64,000 bases of DNA from Bryopsis sp. KO-2023 (Eukaryota; Chlorophyta; Ulvophyceae; Bryopsidales; Bryopsidaceae): positions 4,712,001 through 4,776,000 of the forward strand of contig BSYQ01000009.1 of assembly GCA_030272585.1 (NCBI GenBank), in the 5' to 3' direction. Under the pieces are notes generated by a model. The model was not told where the DNA came from. It did not search any database and was given only the letters and a program-made list of their open reading frames with translations. Shown here in pieces: positions 22,101 through 59,900 of the stretch; position 1 is the stretch's first letter; the number at the start of each line of letters is the position of its first letter. The translations under genes and the position numbers were made by a program.

Positions 22101-24180
22101 CCACCCATTCACAGCGATGGTGGCATTCGTTATGATAATATTGCGAGGAAAATCTGCTTATTTTAGAACCTTACTCCTGACTTTGAATTCTTCTTTTTGT
22201 AGAGATATTTTGGACGGGGGGGTTGGGAAAGAGGGGTTAGTAATCGGTAGGGGTTGTGTGGATAGATTTTTGGGGAGACAGACATACAGGATTGGGTGAC
22301 TTTGGTTGGGGGTTTGGGGAGGTTGGGGGGAAATCTGCATCTAATCTCCTTTGTGTTTGGGGTTTTCAAATGTACGATTGTAGTTGTGGAATTCAAAGAT
22401 TGAATAGAAAGGCGAAAGAGTTCTTTTTTCTTTTTTTTTAAGAAGAGAAAAGAATGCACAGTGACTCCTGTCTGAAGATCGATCATTTCAAGGAAAGAAG
22501 GAAAGAAAAAAAGTGAAATATGATTTCAATTACTTTTTTTTTTTAATCATAATTTACTGCCTGTTTCTTCCTGTTATTTTTTCGGGGCGGAGGATGATTT
22601 TTCTTTTTCTTCTTTTTTTTTCTTTCGTCATCTGCAATCTGCACAAACACAGTTTTTTTCAAAAAAAAACAAAACTGCCCCTTCCCCAGTCTGTCTCGTG
22701 TGTTTTTTCTTTTGGGTTTTCTTCTTGTTTTTAGCTTTTTGCACCCCTTGCACGACCAGAGTGATATTTTTTTTTCCTTTTTCAAACTCTTTCTCTCTTT
22801 CAATGGCCTGCCTCAGGAAGAAAAAAAAAACAAACAAACAAAGAATGTTTCTGTGATGAAAAAAAAGAATCTTGTTTTTTAAAGATAAAATCCTTGTCTG
22901 TACGAAATTGGGTTGATTTCGAGGTTCGAAAGAAAACAAAACAAAAATAAGAACCCTTTGTAAAAAAAGAAAAAAAAAGGGGGGGGAAGAGAAGAGAAGG
23001 AAAGTTGCTGACAGAATATATTAATATTTTTTTTCTAGCAGTTTTGATGCCTTTTGTTGAGAATTTTGGGCTCCTTCTCAATGCGCGTAGCAATCGGACA
23101 AACGAAAGGTGATTTTTTTTTCATAAGAAAAATTTAACAGGAACTCCTGATGAATTTCAAAAAAAAAAAAAAAAGAAACTGACATTCTTTTTCAAAAAGA
23201 AAGGGAAAAAAGCACGGCTGGTGAGGGAGGATTGGGGTGTGGTTTCTTCAACATAGAGGGAAGATTTTAGGAAAAGGGGGGGTGGGTGGGTGGGAACATT
23301 TTGCTAGATATTTCTTAGGATGTGCAGATAGATACATCTAGATTTTCAATATTAGAGAGCAGGAAAAGAAAATGCTTTTTTTTTCATATTCAAAGTTGCT
23401 TGTCCTAACTATGTCCATCTTTTTTTTGTCCAAAAGTATCAAGTCTTATGGCATTTTGGGAAGGTGGGGGGGAAGGGGGGAGCTGGTTTCTGAAGCCACC
23501 CTTTTTTTTTTAAATATAATGGGGGAGGGGTTGAGGAAAAAAAAGAAAAACGTATCGAAGAAAACAAGGCAAAACAACCAAGGGGAAAAAAAAAGGTTTA
23601 AAAAAAATTTAAAAGGAAAAAAAAAAGGGGATGGGTTTTCGTGCTTGGGTTTTTTCTTTCGCACGCTTGTATACATTTCGATTTATGTCGCGGTGGGGGT
23701 GGGGGGGGGGAAAAAAAACAGATTTCAAGTCGAAAGCATTATTCATCTCGACTTGCTTTTTCTCTTTCTTTTTTTTTGTTTTTTTTTTCAACTTGCCAAA
23801 ACGCGACGCTCTTTGTGTTTTGCCTCGATAAATAATCGTGGGAATGGTTTGGGTTTTTTTTGAAAAAAACCTTATTTTTTTTTATGAATTTTCTTTTTTT
23901 TTTTCATTTGGTTTTTTTATCAACATCTGAAAAGATCGAGAGGCACTCTTGATATAGGAGGATGAAGGGGAAAGTGTGATATTACACATTGTTGTAATTA
24001 TAGCAAAAAAAAGGGGAAAAAATCATCCTTCTATTATTCTCTGATTCGGGTGGAAACCATGAAAAGGAAAAAAAGAAAAAAAAAAACGATGGAAAGAGGA
24101 TTCGACAAAGAAAAAAGTACCTACCTTGTTTGAATGGATGAGCAATTAATAGCTGATTTTAAGACATTTCATTTTCTCAG
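16171..24180. other. 8-kb homopolymer-rich gap without genes
   Basis: Long runs of A, T and G (8-20 bases) alternate with GA-rich and TC-rich tracts. C runs are rare (one near 17540). Reading frames here are low-complexity Lys/Phe/Gly translations of the runs and show no codon structure. The first part may be kinesin 3' UTR. There is a TATA-rich stretch near 19040-19160 but no supported gene. Confidence 0.7.
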
Positions 24181-46243: not shown

Positions 46244-49200
46244 CTAAATGTACACTCGAGTATTTTTCAACTCCCTCTGCAGGTACAATCGGCAAGTCCT
46301 GGTGACCGATGTCAGACCCAGATCCAATTTCGACAAATTAGTCAGGGCAACAAGCTGTCGAGCTCCAGCGTCAGACAACCCGGTGCACATCAGATCCAGC
46401 TGCACAAGATTCGTCAGACCCAGAAGATAATTGACCGCGATGTCTGACACTCGGGTATTGTTCAGGTTGAGTTTTCGGAGGTCTTTCAACCGGGCCAAGT
46501 GTTTCACTCCAGCGTCCGTGATCAAGGGGCCGAAAAGGTAGAGGAAACGAAGTTGAGTCATGTTTGCCAGCGCAACCATCCCTCGATCGTTGACCTCTGT
46601 ACGAGTTTATGAAAGAAAAAAAACACATTAAAAAACGAACCCACCAAAACACCCACACACATTTTCCCTACATCATTTTTCCACGAACTTGTGTTTTTCT
46701 TCACAAGAAATACATCATAGAAGTCCGTGAAAAAGGCCCCCCCCCCAAAAAATAATAAATAATAAAAAATAAAAATTATAACATTCAGAATTGCAACTGA
46801 CCTGTGAACTGAAGCGACAGCCAAATCAGCTTCGTGAGGTTTGCAGCCATATGGGCGAGACCTTTGTTTTCGATTCCAGTGTTTCGCAGGTCCAAGTATC
46901 GAAGATTGGACAAATGTCCAAGTTGCATCGCTCCTTCATTCATAACCTGTTTCCGGAAACAAAATATATATAAAAAATTCATCAAAACCCACCCTTTCCC
47001 ACAAAAAAAAATTAAAAAATTATTTTCCAAACGTTGGAGGGTTTCCAACCCGTACACACACTCAAGCAGGTGATCTAACCGACAGCTCCGTCTTTTTTTA
47101 GAAACGAATTTGAACCACATTGTCAAAAGAAAGGGCCGAGGAATTTGAACCACATTGTCAAAAGAAAGGGCCGAGGAATTTGAACCACATTGTCAAAAGA
47201 AAGGGCCGACCTTGGTTCCACAAAGACCGAGCTTCCAGAGATTTTTGAGGTCAGTCATGTGGCATGCCCCGATGTCATCCATTTTTGTCCCAGCGATTTC
47301 GAGCACCTCCAGTTTGGTCAGCCTGGAGAGCGTTTCCATGCCAACCCCACTGATGTTCCTACCACGGGCCGTCAGCCTCTTAAGGTTTGTCAGACCAGCC
47401 AGAAACTCCATACCCTTGTCCCCAACGTGCGAACCTGTCAGGTCTATGTTGGTCAAACTCACCTGGAAAAAAAGCAAAAAAAACGAATGCCCCAAACCTC
47501 CATCATTATTGGTAGAATAGAATCTTTGGGAAAAAAAATGAAAAAATAAAAATATATGTATTTATAAGTATATATAAAAAGCAATGCAGCATCTACTGAC
47601 AGGTCAGGTGTTGTTAAGGAAATGCTGAATTAGTCGACGGAAACCCACCACATTGGCCAAGCCTTTGAGTCCGTTGTTTTCGATGTGCGTGTCGGCAAGG
47701 TCCAAAACCATGAGGTTCTTGAACTGCGAAAACGGAGTCGTGGTGGTGATGCGAGTTTGGAAAAGATTCAACTCCACCAGTTTTGTCAGACTGGACAGAT
47801 ATTGGAGCCCTCGGTCGGACACCCGGGACTTCCCCAAGATGAGGGTCTGCAGGTTTTGCAAGCATCCGACAGCCTCCATGCTACGTGGCAGAAAGACAAG
47901 AGGTTGGGGTTTGAAAATAATGCGAAAAAAATCATCCATGCCTTTGTCGAAACTAGAAAATAAGAAAAAAAAGGGGAGAAGAGGGGGGGGGGGGAAGGTG
48001 GTCTCTTCAAATCTCTTCAAATCAACTTTTTACCCCGTGGTTTAAGGAAAAAAACCCGGGAAAAACACATGCCAGTTTCCCTCAAGTAAAAAAAGGCATT
48101 AATATGGCGTATGACCGAACCCGAAAGCGACGAATCGCTGATTTGCTGTTCAGACGGCCATACCTGGAGTCTCCGATTTTGGAGTACTTCAGATTAAGGT
48201 ATGTCAGACTGGACAAAACCGTCAGATGCCGCATCCCTTTTTCTTCGATCTCCATACTGGACAAGTCCAACTTCAGCAGTTTGCTGAGGCTGGTGAGATG
48301 GGACATTTCTGACTGGTCCAATCGCCCATGCAACACCAATCCGGTGAGTTTCGGCCATTTTGCATGGCACAGAATCTGGAGCCAATCTTCTCGACCCAGT
48401 TTGTCCCAGGACCAGTAAAGGTCCAAGGTGGAAAGATTAACGAAGCGATTTTGGACGCGCTGAATGAGACTGGAGAAGTCCATGCCAACCTGATATCAAG
48501 AAATGAAACAAATGGAAAGCAAAACAAAAACGTTGGTCGTCCTCAACCCCCGCACAGACCCCTCCAAAAAAGATGTATATATATACATATATATCTTAAG
48601 AAAATTCTCCCATAGAGCAAACGGCCAGGTTCACAACTACTCCCAATCCAGATCAACGATGTCATAAACCTTTTTTTTTCGTTTTTTTCTAATATTATTT
48701 TAAAGGAAGGATGCCCCCTAATCTATTTCTGATTCAATCTGGCAGATAAGTATCCCCTCACTTGAACATAACTTTTCCAAAGAATAGAATAAAAAATCCT
48801 GCAGACGTTGGTCAGGACTCGGAATGCATCGACTTCCAACACAATGATTATGGGAAAAAAAACTCGATTCCTATGGCGCTGCACTGACCCCCCTAAAACA
48901 ATTTATATGATTTTATCCCCCCCCCCTTTCCTTGCCCTCAAGTGAACTTGTAAGACTGGAAGACTACCCCACCTTTCCACAAATACACAGTGCCAACCTC
49001 TGAAGAATCCAATCTAAAGGAGAACAAAAATAAACATGTTGGCCGAAGCAAAAAAAAACACGACTTGGCTGTTTTTTGTTTGTTTCGTTTTTTTTTTCCA
49101 TCCTAATTTACACCATGACAACTAATTTTTATTTTTTTTTGTCCTTCCCCTGCAGGAATCGCACACACTTAAAGCCAACTCACTCTCCTTTGCACCGACT

Positions 49201-51224: not shown

Positions 51225-54200
51225 CTAGATTCCACTCCCTACCGACAGTAAATCTCTGATTTCATCCCATTTCGACTGTTCGGGGGGTTTCTCAGCATCC
51301 ATATCCAACACTGTTTCCCTCACTATTTCAGGTTTCGCATTTTCGTCCATGAACAGAGTCCTGACCATGCTCCACCTCGATTTCGAGGGAGGCTCAGGTT
51401 TTTCCAGCACAAAATCCCGAACCTTTTTTGGGTTTACGGCGGCTACAACAGGAAACTCATCGGCCTCTGCATTGGCGGAAAAAAAAAAACCCTGTTAATA
51501 TTGCTGAACAAATCTGGAAGTAGATCCCTTAATGCCTTTTCATGTTGGACAAAAACGAAAACACAGCGGATCACCTCTGTGCACCAGCCCGCCAAAACTG
51601 GCTATGTAAAGTATATATATATATATATATATATGTTATAAAACACACAACATAAAATGCCAAGACCTGCTTCGGTGCCGAAGTGGTATTCGAAAGTAGC
51701 TGATCCATGAAAACTTCAAACCCCTCACTGGAGCAGAGCTTTCTCCCTGGAAATGCACCAGCAATTAATCAACCCATTAGACTACCCAAATCCTGACCCA
51801 CCTGGCATGGCAGACGTTGGAGTAGCATCCTTCACCAATAGATCCTTCAGGAAAGCCCAGTGCGGGTGGGTCCTCACACCACGATCCTCGAAAAACAGCG
51901 TTCGAAACAGGTCCCAATCCCCCCCTTCTGGCACATCCACTCTCTCCCTGGCAAAGGACCTCAAATCCTCCCAATCCTCCCCAAGCTCATCGTCCCTCAT
52001 CAACCACTCTCGCAGGAAACTCCATTTCTCAGGGGATGGCGGATCGTAGTCCACGATCAGCAGATCTCTGACCTTCTTCCACCGTTTCGAGGCTGGAGAT
52101 TTCAGCCGTCTGGGTCCTGAAGGACCGGTGGAGGTTGCGGAAGGGTTGATGCCGCCCTTCTGTTCGTTCAGGATCGCGTTGAGGAAGTCCCAGTGTCTGA
52201 CCAGCAGGGAGCCCTCGTTGTTGGACATCATGTGCCTGAGGAAGGACCAGTATCTCTCTGCCTTGCTGGGAAGCCTCTTCAGAACCCTGGATGCATCGGA
52301 TTGACTGCTGTCTGTTGCTTGAATTTGTGACAGAGCTAATTCATGCTCGTTTCGATCCGTCGCACTGGAGCCTGAGGTTTGGGATGACCTCCTGGATGTA
52401 GTTCTGGAGGAGGCAGCAGAGTCCGATTCGGTACCTAAAACCTATTAAAAAAGGCAACAAAACGCCTCGAAAAGAACTCCTCCCTGCTTTTCGAACAATC
52501 CTGGGGCCTTCTCGAACCACCCATATGGCGTCCAGCAGTGTTCTCTTTCTTAACCAAGATTTTTTTTTTTTTCCCTTTCGCCTGAGCGAAACTCACCTGC
52601 ATAATGACCTGCCAGCCAGGGTGAGTCTGAGGCGTTTTCTTACGCTTCACCACAGGCTCCTCACTCACGAAAACCTCCTTCAGTTTCGCCCATCTTTTTC
52701 CCGCCACCGAAACAGGCTTGGCGGTGGTTTGCTCGTCGATCGATGGCATCGTTGAGGCTGAGGAGGGGGCCGCCAACAGAATTTCCTGAACCACATCCCA
52801 GCCAGGATTTCTAGGCACGTCGTCTGAGAACAAAATGTGACGCAGCACTTCCCATTTCGACCTTGCTTCTGTTTTTGGAGCGACAGGCTCTTCGACCACA
52901 TCCCTGGCTTCCTCCTGAGATTCGACCTCTTGGCTGGGGGTGGTTGGGGGGGGGAGAGGATCAGCATTGTCAGACTCAGCTGGGGCCTCGCTGTCTACAT
53001 CAGGTAAGAGAATATTCTTCAACATATTCCAACCAGGGTGTCGTTCCTCCTCGAGAGTCTGAGATCCAAACACATCCCGGACAACGCTCCATTTCGAATT
53101 TCTCCGAAGCAAAGTTGAAGGGTCGGGTTGATTCTCTGGTGTAGGATCCACCACCTCTTTGACAGGTGTTTGTTCTTTTTGGCTGACTGCAGCCGCCGCC
53201 TCCTCCTCCACTGCTTCTTCCACGACGGTTTCCATCCCCATATCGGTGCCCTGCTGCACCATGTCTGACACCACCACATCCCTGAGCATTTCCCACTTGG
53301 CTGACAGCCGCGCCTCCGGCTTGTTCCCCAGATCGGGCAGCAGCAGAGCTTTCAGATTCTTCCAGTGAGCCTTAGCATTCGTTCTGGGCAACTCTTTCGA
53401 CGCGATGTCTTGGGACCACACCGCAAACGATGGTGGCGATTTGGGTTTTCGTGAGGAGGGTGGAGGGGAGGGGCTTGAACCAGGCGTCGCCACATTCGGA
53501 ATTCCCCTCGACGCAACCCCTTCTTTTGGGATGGTTATGGGGTCCTCATCCGTTTTCTGCGGCTCGGAGACTTCTGGGGGCGGAGGTGGAGCGGGGTTGC
53601 TGAATCGAGGTCCGCCTTGAAAAGGGGACCTGTCCTGGGGGGCTTCGCTAGTCGAAGTTGAGGATTGGGCCCTTGGGGAAGAAGGAGGCGACTTTTTGAA
53701 TGGGTTGCTCACCAGGTCGCCCAGTCTTGGGGATGAACAGGGGGGATCTGGGGTCTTGACTCTTTGGGGGGGTGCTGGTTTCTACACACACAAACACACA
53801 GATTTCTTGAGAAGAACGGATGGGAAAAGCACCCAGGTTTTTCTGAGAGGACACATAAACTTGAGATGTCAAGAGGGCTTACTGGGGAGGGCTTAGTCTC
53901 CAGCAATTTCTTGAACTCTGTCAGCCTGTGTACGATCTCAGGATAGCCCGGTCTTTTCGCTGGGTCCTTGTCCCAGCACTGAGTCATCAGCTCCTTGTAC
54001 TCGTCAAAAAAGGGAGGTCCCAGCAAATCGTCAGGGATCTCCGGACGGAGGTTTTGGTTCACCACGCAGTTAAAAATTTGGAAGGTCCCCATTGCTTCGG
54101 CCTCCCAGGGGGCAGTCCAGGTGAGCAGCTCCCACAGAATCAGCCCGAACGGATAGACATCGCTGGCTTTGGTGTGGTGCTCCCCCTCCAGGACTTCCGG

Positions 54201-55764
54201 GGCCAACCATCGAGGGTTATTCGCAGAAATGGATGAGGTGACATAGCTCGGATCAATGAAACTAAAAACAACAAGAGGGGCCAACTCACACCCGGGGAGG
54301 TTGAAAATTCAAGACGACTTTTTTTCGCATTCTTTTTTTTTTTTTTTTCTGGCCTCGAAAGACAAAAAGGAAGAAAAAAAAAACAAAAAAGCTACCACAG
54401 ATTTTGGATGTACGTTTATTTCGTCCCCTCCCCAGAAGAGTAACTTAGTTGGATAACTATAACTACAGTTTTATTTTATTTTTATTCTTTGGGGGGCGAG
54501 GTTTCTGCATTACGCTGTGATCTCACCCTCCGGCCTCTTGTCCTGGACCTCCTTGGCCTTCCCCTTCCCCCCCGGAGATCCAGGTCACAAATCTGCATGA
54601 ACATTTAGTGGTGTCTTTACCACATATAAAATTAACCCTTTTACCTTTTCCTTTTTTTATTTATTTATTTTATTTTTTATTTTTTGGGGGGGGAGAGTTT
54701 GTTTTTTCGATTTCGCAGAGCAAAGGATCGATCAGTAAGTCCCCATCCCCATATTCAACCAGCGGGCCGTTTCTGTGTGCATTACATCAACTGCAAGGGA
54801 AGGGAGGGGTCCAAGTGTGGCATCGATTTTTATTTATTTTATTTATTTATTGGCGAGCACATATGCATTCGTTCGATTCATATTCGCTACCCCTCAATAT
54901 TCTTTCCCTCCAATTTTAGTGGCCAGCTTCTCCGATCTGTTCAAAGGAGGAGGCTTATCCTCCCTCCCAACCCAAAAGAGAGATAAAGAGGGGGAAAGGG
55001 TAAAAAGAAAAAAAAAACCCAAGGAGGGAAAACAGAACTCACCGTGAGGTGTTGAAATCTGCGACCTTGCAGTTCCAGTATTCGTCCACCAGCAAATTTG
55101 GAGTTTTGAGATCTCTGTGAAGAACAGGGATGTTCCTGCCATGGAGGAAATTCATCCCTATGGCAGCATCCAGGGCCAGCTTTATCCTCATTTTCCAAGT
55201 CAACCTCTTGGCCACCTCCGGGCGATCGCGCGCCCGCGCCAGAAGCGCGTACAGGGAGCCCTTTTGGCAGTACTCCGTAATGATACAGGGGGGCTCCAAG
55301 CACACGCCCAGGAACATGACGATTTTCTGGTGGCGCAGGTTGCGCAGGATGGACACTTCTCTTTCGAGCGCGACCAAGATTTCGCCTATCCTGGCGGTAT
55401 CGTTGGTATCGCAAGCCTCCTCGTCGTCGAGGTCGCGGGAGCCGAACGAATTCGCACGCTCGCCGAGCTGGTCCACGAAATTCTTGACGGTTAACTCCTT
55501 GATCGCCACGTCCTGATCATACAAGATCCCTTTGTACACCCGGCCGAAGCTCCCCTCCCCGATGGGCCTCACGAATATGAACTGAGATTTCGGGATGAAC
55601 GGTGCGTCCCACAGTGATGGATATGTTTTCAGCAGGTGGGCATCCAGCACGGGGGGTCCGGACACCGAGGTCGACCCCGAAAAAGCTTCCTTGAGGGCTT
55701 TTTCGATCGCAGCATTGTGTACAGCTTGGCTGTCGAGCGACATATTTCCAGATAGTCCCGTCAT
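51225..55764 (-). CDS. TKL-like protein kinase with C-terminal tryptophan-repeat tail
   Basis: Six exons: 55043-55764, 53883-54261, 52597-53781, 51802-52441, 51667-51746 and 51225-51464 (TAG); 1081 residues, phases matching. The kinase domain spans about residues 60-365: GEGSFGRVYKG, VAIKE (Lys89), an acidic insert near 110-130, HRDLKTPNLLVD, DFN in place of DFG, RWLAPEVL, DVYPFGLILWELLT and KDPAKRPGYPEIV. A Pro/Ser-rich linker follows. From about residue 500 to the end there are about 16 units of roughly 17-30 residues with W-x-x-L/V-(R/K)-x-x-L/F-x-x-D (RSKWEVLRHILFSDD, HPGWNMLKNILLPD, HPHWAFLKDLLVKD). I know no named domain with this tail; it may be a helical binding array. DFN may alter magnesium binding, though Lys and HRD are intact. 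Intron 3 and 5 acceptors were chosen by phase. Confidence 0.85.
51611..51634. repeat. (TA)n microsatellite in the last intron of the W-repeat kinase gene
   Basis: About 11 TA units. Confidence 0.95.
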
Positions 55765-56905
55765 CTGATAACCAAAAACTCAAAATCAGTCGCAATGCCA
55801 AGACGCCCTCGAGCCTACGAAAAGGGTTGGCGTCCCCGTACAGCCTACGAGTCCAGCATAGGGGGAAAGAAAACCACGGTCACACGAATCCCAAAAACCG
55901 CGTTTGAAAGTCAACACCACGTTAAGTTTCTGGCTCGCTTCTTTTCACCACGTTATTCCAGCCTTTACTACGGCCGCGTTCCCCCCCCCCGCCACGCCAC
56001 GCAGGGAGGAGCACCTAGATATTTCACGCCCTGCTCAACCCCCGTCACTCTTCCAAACGCTTCGAACCCGCGCAACGACGGCACTCAGATATTTCACGCA
56101 TCTCCCCCCCCCTCCCCGGCCCCCAGAAGACAGCACCAAAAACTCCGCCGCCCATGAACAAACACCTCGACATCAGAAACGAGCGATGAGAAACGGACGT
56201 ACTTACCCACGGGTCTCAAGCCACGTCGCGCACTCTGTTCCTGCTTCCGCTCGAATAACGCACTCTTCACCAACCCTCTGACAGATACGCCATCCCACCA
56301 GCTGAAGTGTGACATTTCCATCAACCCCCCAAAACTCACTCATGAATCCACCCCTCACCGCCCCACCAGCTTCCGCCTGCCTCTGCGAATTCGAGTGTGT
56401 GTGGACTGGGTGAGCGACCGCCATCCAAAAAGAAATCCACGAAAACGACCAAGTTTCGGCTTTGGGGTTCCCTGCGTTCAGGTTTTTGTTGTCGCCAGTT
56501 TCGTAACGTATTTCGAGAATCGAAAGCGCAGATCGCCGTCGGTCGATCGATCGAATCTGGCCAATGCCGGGAACTACAGGGTTAGATCAATACGTCGCAA
56601 GGGAGCGAAAACATAAGGTCGAATGCTTTTCCGCCCCTGGATTTACCCGCACACATTGCTGCGGACCTGCAGTGTCGGGGCCAGCTCCCCCTTGATTTCT
56701 TCCTCAATGCCTCTTTCTTGTCACTCTTTTTTGGTAAAAAAACAAAGAAAAGATGGGAGTTGGGGGCAAATCTTTTCCCCTCCTTTCATTAAATCATCAA
56801 GTGTTTTTTTCTCTTTCTCGGCACCTTTTTGAATTTCTTGTGTGTTTGTGTGGGGGGGGTGTTCCCGACAGATATAGAACGAGAAATCGGAAGTGAGGTT
56901 TTTCC
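55765..56905. promoter_or_regulatory. Shared region between divergent kinase genes
   Basis: 1141 bp separate the two kinase ATGs. It is C-rich on the plus strand (runs near 55980 and 56104). An acceptor-like TTATCAG lies directly before the minus-strand ATG at 55764, so a 5' UTR intron is possible there. No coding exon is recognised. Confidence 0.45.
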
Positions 56906-59900
56906 ATGGCTGAGGAGCAGCCGCCACATTGGGGCGACACCCCGTTCATTCCCCCTAACGAGATCATATTGGTCAGGAAAATCAGCGAGGGCTCTTTTGG
57001 GGCCGTTTTCAAAGCCATTTACATGTATCAATTGGTGGCTGTCAAAATTTTCGTCAATCACAACCATACTGGGAGCAGATCTTCGTTGGATGGTAATGGG
57101 GAGGACCGGGTGCCTTTGATCCGGCAAATGGAGCAAGAGGTCAGAATTCTGAGGAATCTCAGGCACCATAACGTGGTGGGTTTTTTGGGAGCGGTGGAGG
57201 ACCCGCCAGCCATAGTGATGGATTACTGCAGGTAGGGTAATACAACAGCCCGAATTATATTTTTAGCTTTCGTGTTTTTTGGTGTGTTTCGCTTTTTCTG
57301 ATTGCCGTGGGAATGATTTTCTTGGTGCAGCGCAAGCAGCCATCTTTCTTGTTTTTTCTTTCTTTTTTCTGTCGATTTTTGGGTTTCTTGTTCAACTGTA
57401 TCCAAAGAGAAAAAAAAGCAAAGAAATAATTATTAAAAAAAAAATCCGCCCGAGAACAAAAAATGAAAGAATGAAAGAAAGATGAACAAGGTCATGATTT
57501 TGAGAGCTGGGGAAAATGGACGAGATTTTTTTTTTGTTTTTCTGGGTAGAATTCTGAAATGGAAAATTTGTGCATTGTTTTGTTGGGGTTGGATGGGGGT
57601 TGGGGAAATGGATGCAGGTCTGGTTCGTTGTGGGATGTGATCCGAAAGGCACAAATGAACGAGAATATCAGAAAAAAGCTATCATGGACCAGGAGGATCA
57701 ATCTGTTATTGGGAGCAGCACAAGGAATGGCGTTCATTCACACAAGAATAGGTGCAGCCGTAAAAGGGGAGGTACCACTTTTGCCCAGGATTTCAAAAAA
57801 AAAAAAAAAAATCTGCGCCATCAGATTTTTTTTGTTCCCTCCTCCTCGCAGTGAAGCCTCAACATAGCAGAGGATTGAATTGAATTTTATCGTCATTTGT
57901 TTTTTTTTCAATTTTCATGGGAAAAAACGGAACATTAGGTGATGAGACAACCACTCTTTCAGTTTTTTTCTTGTTTATATCAATTTAAGTGAGTTTACTT
58001 TAATTATGATAATTCTTTTTTTTTGGTGTGTTTTTAATTGATTAGTAATCCGGGTTTTTTTTGCTTTTTTTTTTTATGTCTTGGTAAGGTTTTTTGAGCG
58101 TGGTGCATTTTTTGCACCTGGCACTGATCGTTATTCTCAATGTGTTGGTATAGGAACGAAGCCCGTAATTCATCACAGGGACCTCAAAAGCCCAAACATT
58201 TTGCTGGACAAAGATTGGGTAGTTAAAATTGCCGATTTTGGGCTGTCCAGGTAACCCAACTCATGCCTTTCCCCGACACGCCGTGTGTAAGTCCCTTCGT
58301 TTCAAAAATTAAATCATAAACAGAAGGAAAAAAAGTGTCGCTTTCGTTATTTTTTTTGGTAGCATTCATATATGCAGATGCCCAGTTCCTTTTTTGTTTC
58401 ATGTTTGTTTTTTTTCACCCCAGGTTTATGGACCCCCCCCTGAACATTCAGTGGGACGTGATCGCAAACAACCCTGCTTGGATGGCCCCTGAGATTCTGA
58501 GGGCTGGTCAGTCAGACAGGGGTTTAAAGTTCAACGAAAAAACGGACGTTTATCCTTTCGGCATAATCATGTGGGAGTTATTGACCCTGCAAAGACCGTG
58601 GTCCTCCGAGGATGGGAGCATGATGTTGGTTGTGCAAATTTTTGCTTCCCTGGTGATCAGCAACGAAAGATTGCCTATTCCAGAAGACCTCGCAAGCATC
58701 CCTGGTAGGAAATACAAAAGGAAAAAAAAAACAAAAAAACACTGTGATGAGATCGAAATTTTTTCAATCCCCCCCCAAAAAAAAATAAAAAAAAATAAAA
58801 ATAAATGATGAGGTCTAATTTTTTTCGAGGGGTGCCACGATCAGTTCGAGAAGCATGCGAAGGAAAGAGAGGGAATAATAATTAAAACAATTATAATTAA
58901 TTTCAATAATGATTCAGGACTGATGCCAGGATTTGTTTTGAGATCTTTTGGATCAATGGATCAGGTGTGAGAGGTAGGATCCAAGCCCTCCAAGCATACA
59001 TCGATTTAATGAATCGCTGTTGGGCCTCCGATCAAGACGAAAGGCCCACCTACAAAGAAATCGTGGTCAAATTGCAAGACATCAAGGATCTGTTCATGAG
59101 GCGGCCACCCCCCTGCTTGGATAGAGCAAAAACCAACGAAAAACTCAAGGAAATGCTGAACCTGTATCGAAACCCAACGGTAATGCTCCTATGCCAGTTT
59201 CCGAATTGCCATCGTTCGGCGGAATTTTTCACTCACTGTGCCGAGATGTGGGGCCTCAATACAATCATTAAGGTCTCGAGGATTAGAATTGACACAGGGT
59301 GTTTTGCTGATATTATCACAATGCTCGTTCCATAAAGCGAAACTGCGTCGATTTTGGCGGAGGGATATTTCTTGGCCTTTTTGTACAGTGTGGGTTTTTT
59401 TCTGAAAAGTTTTGCTTGCACATGCATTCATCCAATATGGTCCTTTAAACAAAACGTTATCTGAATGTGATGTTTTTTTGGCTTTTTTTTCCCCTGTTTT
59501 GGAAATGTAGGGGATGCCTGGCCAGGCGATTCCTATGTCAGACTCTTTTTTCGTGAAGATGATCACCGGCGGCCAGGAGAGTGGAAGCTTCCTGGGCTCA
59601 TCTTTGATAAACCCCCCCAACGTGCCCTCCATCAGTGGAAGAATTGAAGGCACTGATCTCAACTCGATGCCCATGAGTTGCGACGGTGCTGTGGAAGACG
59701 AGGTCCCGTTTGGGAGCAGGGATGTGCCAATCCAACCACCATGCGCGGTGAGCAACTTTCCAAGAAAAAGAAAAGTATGTTTGGGTTTTTTCCTTCAGAA
59801 AAAAAATCAGTTTTTTTTTTTTTTCCTCTGGATACTTTAGTGTTTTGAAATGGGTTGGGTCGATGCCAAAAAGTTAATTGAAACCAGCCCACGATGCTAA

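Follow-up and report, generated by a model that had tools for sequence, protein, structure and literature searches.

A tryptophan-led repeat array in the tail of a TKL-type kinase from Bryopsis and a four-unit domain shared with six other loci

Introduction

RIPK1 and RIPK2 are TKL kinases that carry a Death domain or a CARD at the C terminus. The gene described here lies in a window of 64,000 nucleotides (the whole stretch of DNA analyzed) of the genome of the green alga Bryopsis sp. KO-2023, and it resembles these proteins in its predicted layout, with a TKL-type kinase, a linker, and a small, apparently all-helical C-terminal module of roughly 80 amino acids. It differs in that its tail, like the segments of its paralogues, has no Death or CARD profile match in Pfam and instead presents a tryptophan-led four-unit pattern, with 17 tryptophan units and two units without the tryptophan.

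Myb, SANT, and MADF are three-helix domains with tryptophans about 18 to 19 residues apart and W-x-x-I/L in the helices, and the first helix of Myb is acidic (W-T-x-E-E-D). The tail likewise shows tryptophans about 17 to 22 residues apart and W-x-x-I/L, but it lacks the acidic first helix, has no Pfam match over the cut-off, and aligns to c-Myb with an hhalign probability of 7%. LIR-type motifs favor acidic residues before the aromatic residue. The tail shares with LIR/AIM motifs a repeated W-x-x-L/I/V core and linkers of disordered composition, whereas it has a basic residue, His, or Gly before most tryptophans, conservation up to position +7, and a conserved four-unit domain. TPR, HAT, and HEAT are helical solenoid repeats of short amphipathic tandem units. 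Short amphipathic units in tandem, predicted to be helical, are also found here, but each unit would be a single helix of about 13 residues, the spacing is uneven, and no Pfam repeat model is matched.

Results

The kinase gene with the repeat tail is predicted on the minus strand and has five exons that encode 1055 amino acids (Table 1), against the 1081 implied by a first-pass annotation of this DNA. The four introns, of 781, 101, 155, and 335 nt, all show GT-AG borders. Exon 1 contains the GEGSFG glycine loop and the VAIK and HRD motifs, with DFN replacing DFG; an intact DFG is absent, and the sequence reads ADFNTSR, in which the Asp is retained. Exons 1 and 2 score 98.5 and 61.4 bits against the PF07714 profile (cut-off, 23.1 bits). 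The assignment as a TKL-type kinase relies on sequence features, namely, a profile score above the cut-off together with the glycine loop, the VAIK lysine, and HRD, and not on a kinase tree. By the codon usage of the kinase, the phased frame ranks first of six in each of the three tail exons, with a narrow preference in exon 4 (0.20 versus 0.16). A separate gene for the tail exons, the case named in the first-pass annotation as contrary to its reading, is unlikely because the splice signals and phase, the codon usage, and the single frame of locus L068, which encodes a kinase C-lobe together with the four-tryptophan (4-W) domain described below, are consistent with one gene. Adjoining the kinase gene, at 46785-48495 on the minus strand, frames with leucine-rich-repeat-like sequence were recognized by eye.

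TABLE 1 Predicted features of the kinase gene and loci with paralogous 4-W domains
Feature	Position	Strand	Content
Exon 1	55043..55764	-	N terminus and kinase N-lobe up to the start of the activation loop; PK_Tyr_Ser-Thr PF07714, E 5e-28
Exon 2	53883..54261	-	Kinase C-lobe; PF07714, E 1e-16
Exon 3	52597..53781	-	Pro/Ser-rich linker, then eight W units
Exon 4	51802..52441	-	Ser-rich linker, then seven W units (W827, 846, 883, 902, 919, 938, 957)
Exon 5	51225..51466	-	Two W units (W1007, 1042), two W-less units (P988, P1021), stop codon
Entire repeat array	51225..53382	-	About aa 501-1055, counting introns
Canonical 4-W domain	51830..52033	-	aa 899-966; units A-B-C-D = W902, 919, 938, 957
4-W paralogue	C1:5837.6k
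4-W paralogue	C9:4452.9k
4-W paralogue	C9:5129.9k
4-W paralogue (L068)	C9:575.9k
4-W paralogue	C9:4441.8k
4-W paralogue	C12:2799.6k

Of the 19 tryptophans in the tail (amino acids 367 to 1055), 17 begin a unit of the form W-x-x-Φ-(R/K)-x-Φ-Φ. Positions +3, +6, and +7 are hydrophobic in all 17 of these units, with L, V, or I at +3 in 16; R or K occupies +4 in 14, and D occupies +10 in 8. Just before the tryptophan, at −1, 14 units have K, H, G, or R and 2 have D; just after it, at +1, 7 have D or E. In 5000 shuffles, no tail contained as many as 17 units fitting W-x-x-Φ-x-x-Φ-Φ (mean, 0.29; maximum, 4), and the mean pairwise similarity of the units, with the tryptophan excluded, is 8.8 versus −11.0 for segments drawn at random from shuffled tails. 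The two extra units of exon 5 keep the pattern without the tryptophan. The eight units of exon 3 (W507, 530, 598, 618, 677, 695, 731, and 757) form four close pairs separated by long linkers, and over the whole tail the spacing is 17 to 26 residues in close sets versus 35 to 70 between sets. The first-pass description of about 16 tryptophan-centered repeats with a regular core and varied spacing is therefore borne out, with the units occupying three exons rather than four.

Proline makes up 3% of the unit cores versus 16% of the linkers, where serine reaches 13%, and the linkers are probably disordered, judging from their Pro/Ser/Thr/Glu-rich composition. At 100 degrees, the units have a mean hydrophobic moment only slightly higher than that of random tail segments (0.32 versus 0.28). 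A matrix trained on the tail units and on the units of the paralogues, run over the whole window in six frames, recovered all 17 units with scores of 12.5 to 26.3. It also gave 11 other, isolated matches at scores of 9 or above, the best being 17.5 at 23291 on the plus strand; a match of 14.0 is antisense within the kinase gene (52380, plus strand). Recent tandem duplication at the DNA level is ruled out, and the units are not recent copies, because the only DNA repeat found in 2557 bases is one 21-nt pair at 81%, one copy of which is intronic. The pairing of (H/N)PGW with (S/K)(K/R)W types proposed in the first-pass annotation holds in part: close pairs are present and the types before the tryptophan are visible in a few of them, (H/N)PGW occurring three times in the tail and HPHW once, but sorting the units into two classes by their place in a pair gives no significant difference over the unit (1265/5000 permutations with four pairs and 411/5000 with seven). 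Within intron 4, at 51500-51560 on the minus strand, a frame reading HEKALRDLLPDLF resembles a W-less unit and may be a lost or alternative exon.

The region is not a uniform repeat tail, as first described, but contains a discrete domain of four units, the 4-W domain (70 to 80 amino acids), which by sequence comparison has homologues elsewhere in the genome, at six loci (Table 1). These paralogues were gathered by searching the genome with the window tail and then with the relatives as queries; a consensus query of the domain returned the six loci and the window and no further ones, i.e., at least seven in all. In the alignment over the four units, A is W-x-x-I-R in three members, B is mostly W-x-x-I/V, C is W-x-x-F in most, and D is HW-x-x-L-K/R in most. 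The paralogues keep the units in a fixed order with type-specific residues, at 24 to 31% identity to the window domain, and retain four tryptophans in three cases, three in two, and two in one. The window domain has its units in the order A-B-C-D, C reading W-x-x-F-x-x-x-F and D reading HW-x-x-LK. These two units are the clearest, while A and B are ambiguous, W902 and W919 being slightly nearer to D than to A or B by similarity to the paralogue units. Outside the canonical four, D is the closest type for 9 of the 13 units. For L021, L052, and L053, the first unit, which lacks the tryptophan, was not used in this typing, nor was the second unit of L021.

Amino acids 895 to 975 score 43.4 bits against a profile of the six paralogues built without the window. 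In 500 shuffles each, the maximum was 11.1 bits for full shuffling and 24.9 bits when the tryptophans and the hydrophobic pattern were kept. Elsewhere in the gene the same profile gives −0.3 bits for the kinase part and 19.0 bits for the exon 3 units. Direct single-sequence links between the window and the paralogues are weak. The best of them came from L012 as the query, which found the window at E = 6.1e-4 and, among the paralogues, L013 at 2.2e-4. The window tail as the query found L012 at E = 0.0055 and L013 at 0.21, L013 found the window at 0.07 along with L019 (8.5e-14) and L021 (0.0035), and L021 found the window at 0.96. L019 retrieved L052 (1.7e-4) and L053 (2.2e-4), and L052 retrieved L053 (1.0e-43) and L019 (3.3e-4), with no window match from L019 or L052 at E up to 10. 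Weak single matches at E values of 0.03 to 0.85 also pointed to L014, L015, L056, L059, and L061, but these were set aside, as none of their frames contained successive units.

One contig, which makes up 6% of the genome, carries five of the seven loci (binomial P = 1.8e-5), or four of six when the window is left out (P = 2.0e-4). A consensus query of the pair gave three matches in the genome, all in the window gene, and among the copies found in the genome only this gene has the array. A DNA pattern for HPGW matched 27 times in the whole genome versus 5 times for the control; three matches were in the window gene (two) and L013 (one). A matrix scan found no row of units at the remaining 24, and loose two-motif frames among them (L026, L042, L044, and L049) were judged to be chance. 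The 4-W domain may be older than the species because the paralogues have diverged so far from the window copy.

A kinase or kinase-like domain is situated upstream of the 4-W domain, on the same strand or in frame, at five of the seven loci. At L067, the kinase-like frame ends about 0.5 kb upstream and lacks HRD and DFG. At L068, the C-lobe and the 4-W domain are encoded by one uninterrupted frame of 359 amino acids, with a C-lobe match below the cut-off (E = 6e-4) and an N-lobe frame above it. The kinase is about 1.5 to 2.5 kb upstream at C9:4441.8k, with HRD and DFG present, and about 1.8 to 2.8 kb upstream at C12:2799.6k. Catalytic motifs vary among these kinases, from DFN in the window to the loss of both motifs at L067 and the presence of both at L075. 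Except where the frame is common, we infer that the upstream kinase and the 4-W domain form one gene per locus. The repeat without a kinase, which the first-pass annotation had suggested looking for, has two candidates, C1:5837.6k and C9:4452.9k, where no kinase was found within about 4.9 kb upstream (local kinase profile, with frames inspected by eye); a far or very diverged kinase exon may be present at either.

A second TKL-type kinase, with an intact DFG, is encoded at about 56897-59335 on the plus strand, head to head with the window kinase gene, and is 49% and 46% identical to the window kinase in two exon matches. The matrix scan gave no W-unit match after it on the plus strand up to the end of the window. 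The kinase at C9:4279.0k has no W-unit tail in the 2.6 kb downstream, where one isolated match scored 11.7. These two close kinase paralogues without a tail in the examined flank argue against a simple history.

Several other observations concern the surroundings of these loci. L068 and L017 have similar hydrophobic, Cys-bearing stretches (FLAVLSCGFIRP and FLTLLSCGLIHS) before the 4-W domain, perhaps a shared region or an anchor; because the stretches are alike, there is a hint that the L017 gene, which has no kinase beside it, is related to the L068 kinase. Upstream of the kinase-less 4-W domain of L017 (284-1336, plus strand), a frame resembles by eye the C-terminal part of a hAT transposase. 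Downstream of the 4-W kinase gene of L067 (1137-2555, minus strand), a frame that combines a zinc-knuckle-like motif with an aspartic-protease-like DSG stretch, also recognized by eye, is probably a retroelement. The whole genome contains 107 exon matches to the light-harvesting family (PF00504), several of them clustered on contig C4, and this large family points to a photosynthetic organism, an alga.

AlphaFold2 models were made from the window sequence only. The model of amino acids 877 to 972 presents five helices, each with one unit-heading tryptophan (pLDDT, 61; pTM, 0.43), and that of the W677/W695 pair (amino acids 672 to 710) presents two (pLDDT, 74.5; pTM, 0.32). Helices at the repeat units are thus credible at the low to moderate confidence of these models, and a helix at each modeled unit weakly favors the helical array suggested by the first-pass annotation. 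A search of the five-unit model, itself of low confidence, against the PDB with Foldseek gave five matches (best E value, 2.6), which were taken as noise; the result speaks neither for nor against the six-helix Greek key of Death domains and CARDs.

Discussion

The proposed explanation takes as its building block a short, tryptophan-led amphipathic helix, four of which would make up a 4-W domain that appears to follow several TKL-type kinases and pseudokinases of this algal genome. The window gene would have kept one canonical domain (W902 to W957) and acquired the other units upstream and downstream of it, mostly as close pairs that may form two-helix beads on flexible linkers rich in Pro, Ser, Thr, and Glu. 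The helices would pack through W0 and positions +3, +6, and +7. The modules could then bind one another or several copies of a shared partner, in a putatively multivalent manner, and this binding would gather substrates or cluster the kinase, with a presumed effect on its activity. Docking to partners or to the kinase itself, as suggested in the first-pass annotation, is plausible. Weighing against the proposed explanation are the low confidence of the models, the weak single-sequence links of the window to the paralogues, the slight pull of W902 and W919 toward D, a hydrophobic moment barely above that of random tail segments, the two close kinase paralogues with no tail in the examined flank, and the chance that the units are separate linear motifs instead of folded modules. 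Taken as a whole, the reading of the tail as a kinase-attached docking or oligomerization module made multivalent stands, in our judgment, about evenly between right and wrong. Considerably greater confidence attaches to the anatomy of the array and to its homology with the paralogues.

The same tail could instead act within its own molecule, folding back to inhibit or activate the kinase, with the array arising by drift and not for multivalency. The position of the 4-W domain C-terminal to a kinase or kinase-like domain at five of the seven loci fits such regulation, as do the varied catalytic motifs of those kinases (DFN, neither HRD nor DFG, or both), yet two loci have no kinase in the upstream stretch that was searched, and 17 units would exceed the need of one cis contact; this alternative is considered unlikely. 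Each W-x-x-L/I/V might also bind a partner alone and unfolded, for example, as an LIR-like motif for Atg8-type proteins. The near-invariant aliphatic residue at +3 and the disordered-looking linkers are what such motifs would give. The acidic flank known from LIR motifs is missing here, on the side before the tryptophan only, where 14 of 17 units have a basic residue, His, or Gly and two have D. Conservation moreover reaches +4, +6, and +7, helices are predicted, and the paralogues keep unit order and type-specific residues, which makes independent linear motifs quite unlikely.

A further question is whether the units are new, which here means absent from Pfam-A, the PDB, and viral contigs, with this genome as the eukaryotic sequence covered. 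Since this genome was the one eukaryotic collection covered, and the domain has diverged among its paralogues and may predate the species, membership in a repeat or domain family already described from other algae is possible, if doubtful. It is opposed by the outcome of the searches, which agrees with the first-pass view that no named repeat fits. No repeat segment exceeded a curated cut-off in Pfam-A (models to 2025), and no Pfam repeat family was matched, the lowest E values being 0.01 for DUF7660 (1 of 12 pair segments) and 0.045 for MADF. PDB profile searches came nowhere near significance (best E values of 0.21 for c-Myb and 0.17 for ZorC, with no match in the third), two single-protein queries of viral contigs gave 7 and 27 pattern matches with no relatives, and the repeat was not found in the literature at the level of search-result entries. 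The c-Myb and MADF matches could be taken to mean that the units are highly diverged three-helix domains of the Myb/SANT/MADF kind that bind protein or DNA, a reading that the spacing of 17 to 19 residues in the canonical domain also favors. In hhalign, the seven-row domain profile scores 17.7 against c-Myb R1 to R3, higher than any of 40 column-shuffled controls (13.5 or less), but at the low probability cited above; the pair alignment, with one misaligned row left out, reaches a probability of 1.5% and a score of 12.2 versus a shuffled maximum of 12.1. The MADF score is 14.6 bits against a cut-off of 22, Pfam returned no Myb, SANT, or MADF family for any of the seven domain members or 12 pair segments, and there are four units instead of three, without the acidic first helix. 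A Myb-like identity is therefore very improbable, and the resemblance is read as similar spacing and not as membership.

Beyond the docking or oligomerization reading, we tentatively advance a wider proposal that is itself doubtful. The 4-W domain would be a new helical domain family carried mainly by the TKL kinases and pseudokinases of a single algal lineage, and in one kinase it would have become a multivalent array that brings kinase molecules together through homotypic or partner-driven assembly, convergent with the Death domain or CARD arrangement of the RIPKs. If this is true, a kinase-associated domain family would join the catalogue, together with a clear case of a small domain turned into an array of its own helices. 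Having single-domain paralogues alongside an expanded copy in the same genome would offer a natural comparison for the effect of multivalency on a kinase. Should the 4-W domain self-associate, kinase clustering through a helical module at the C terminus would have been invented separately here.
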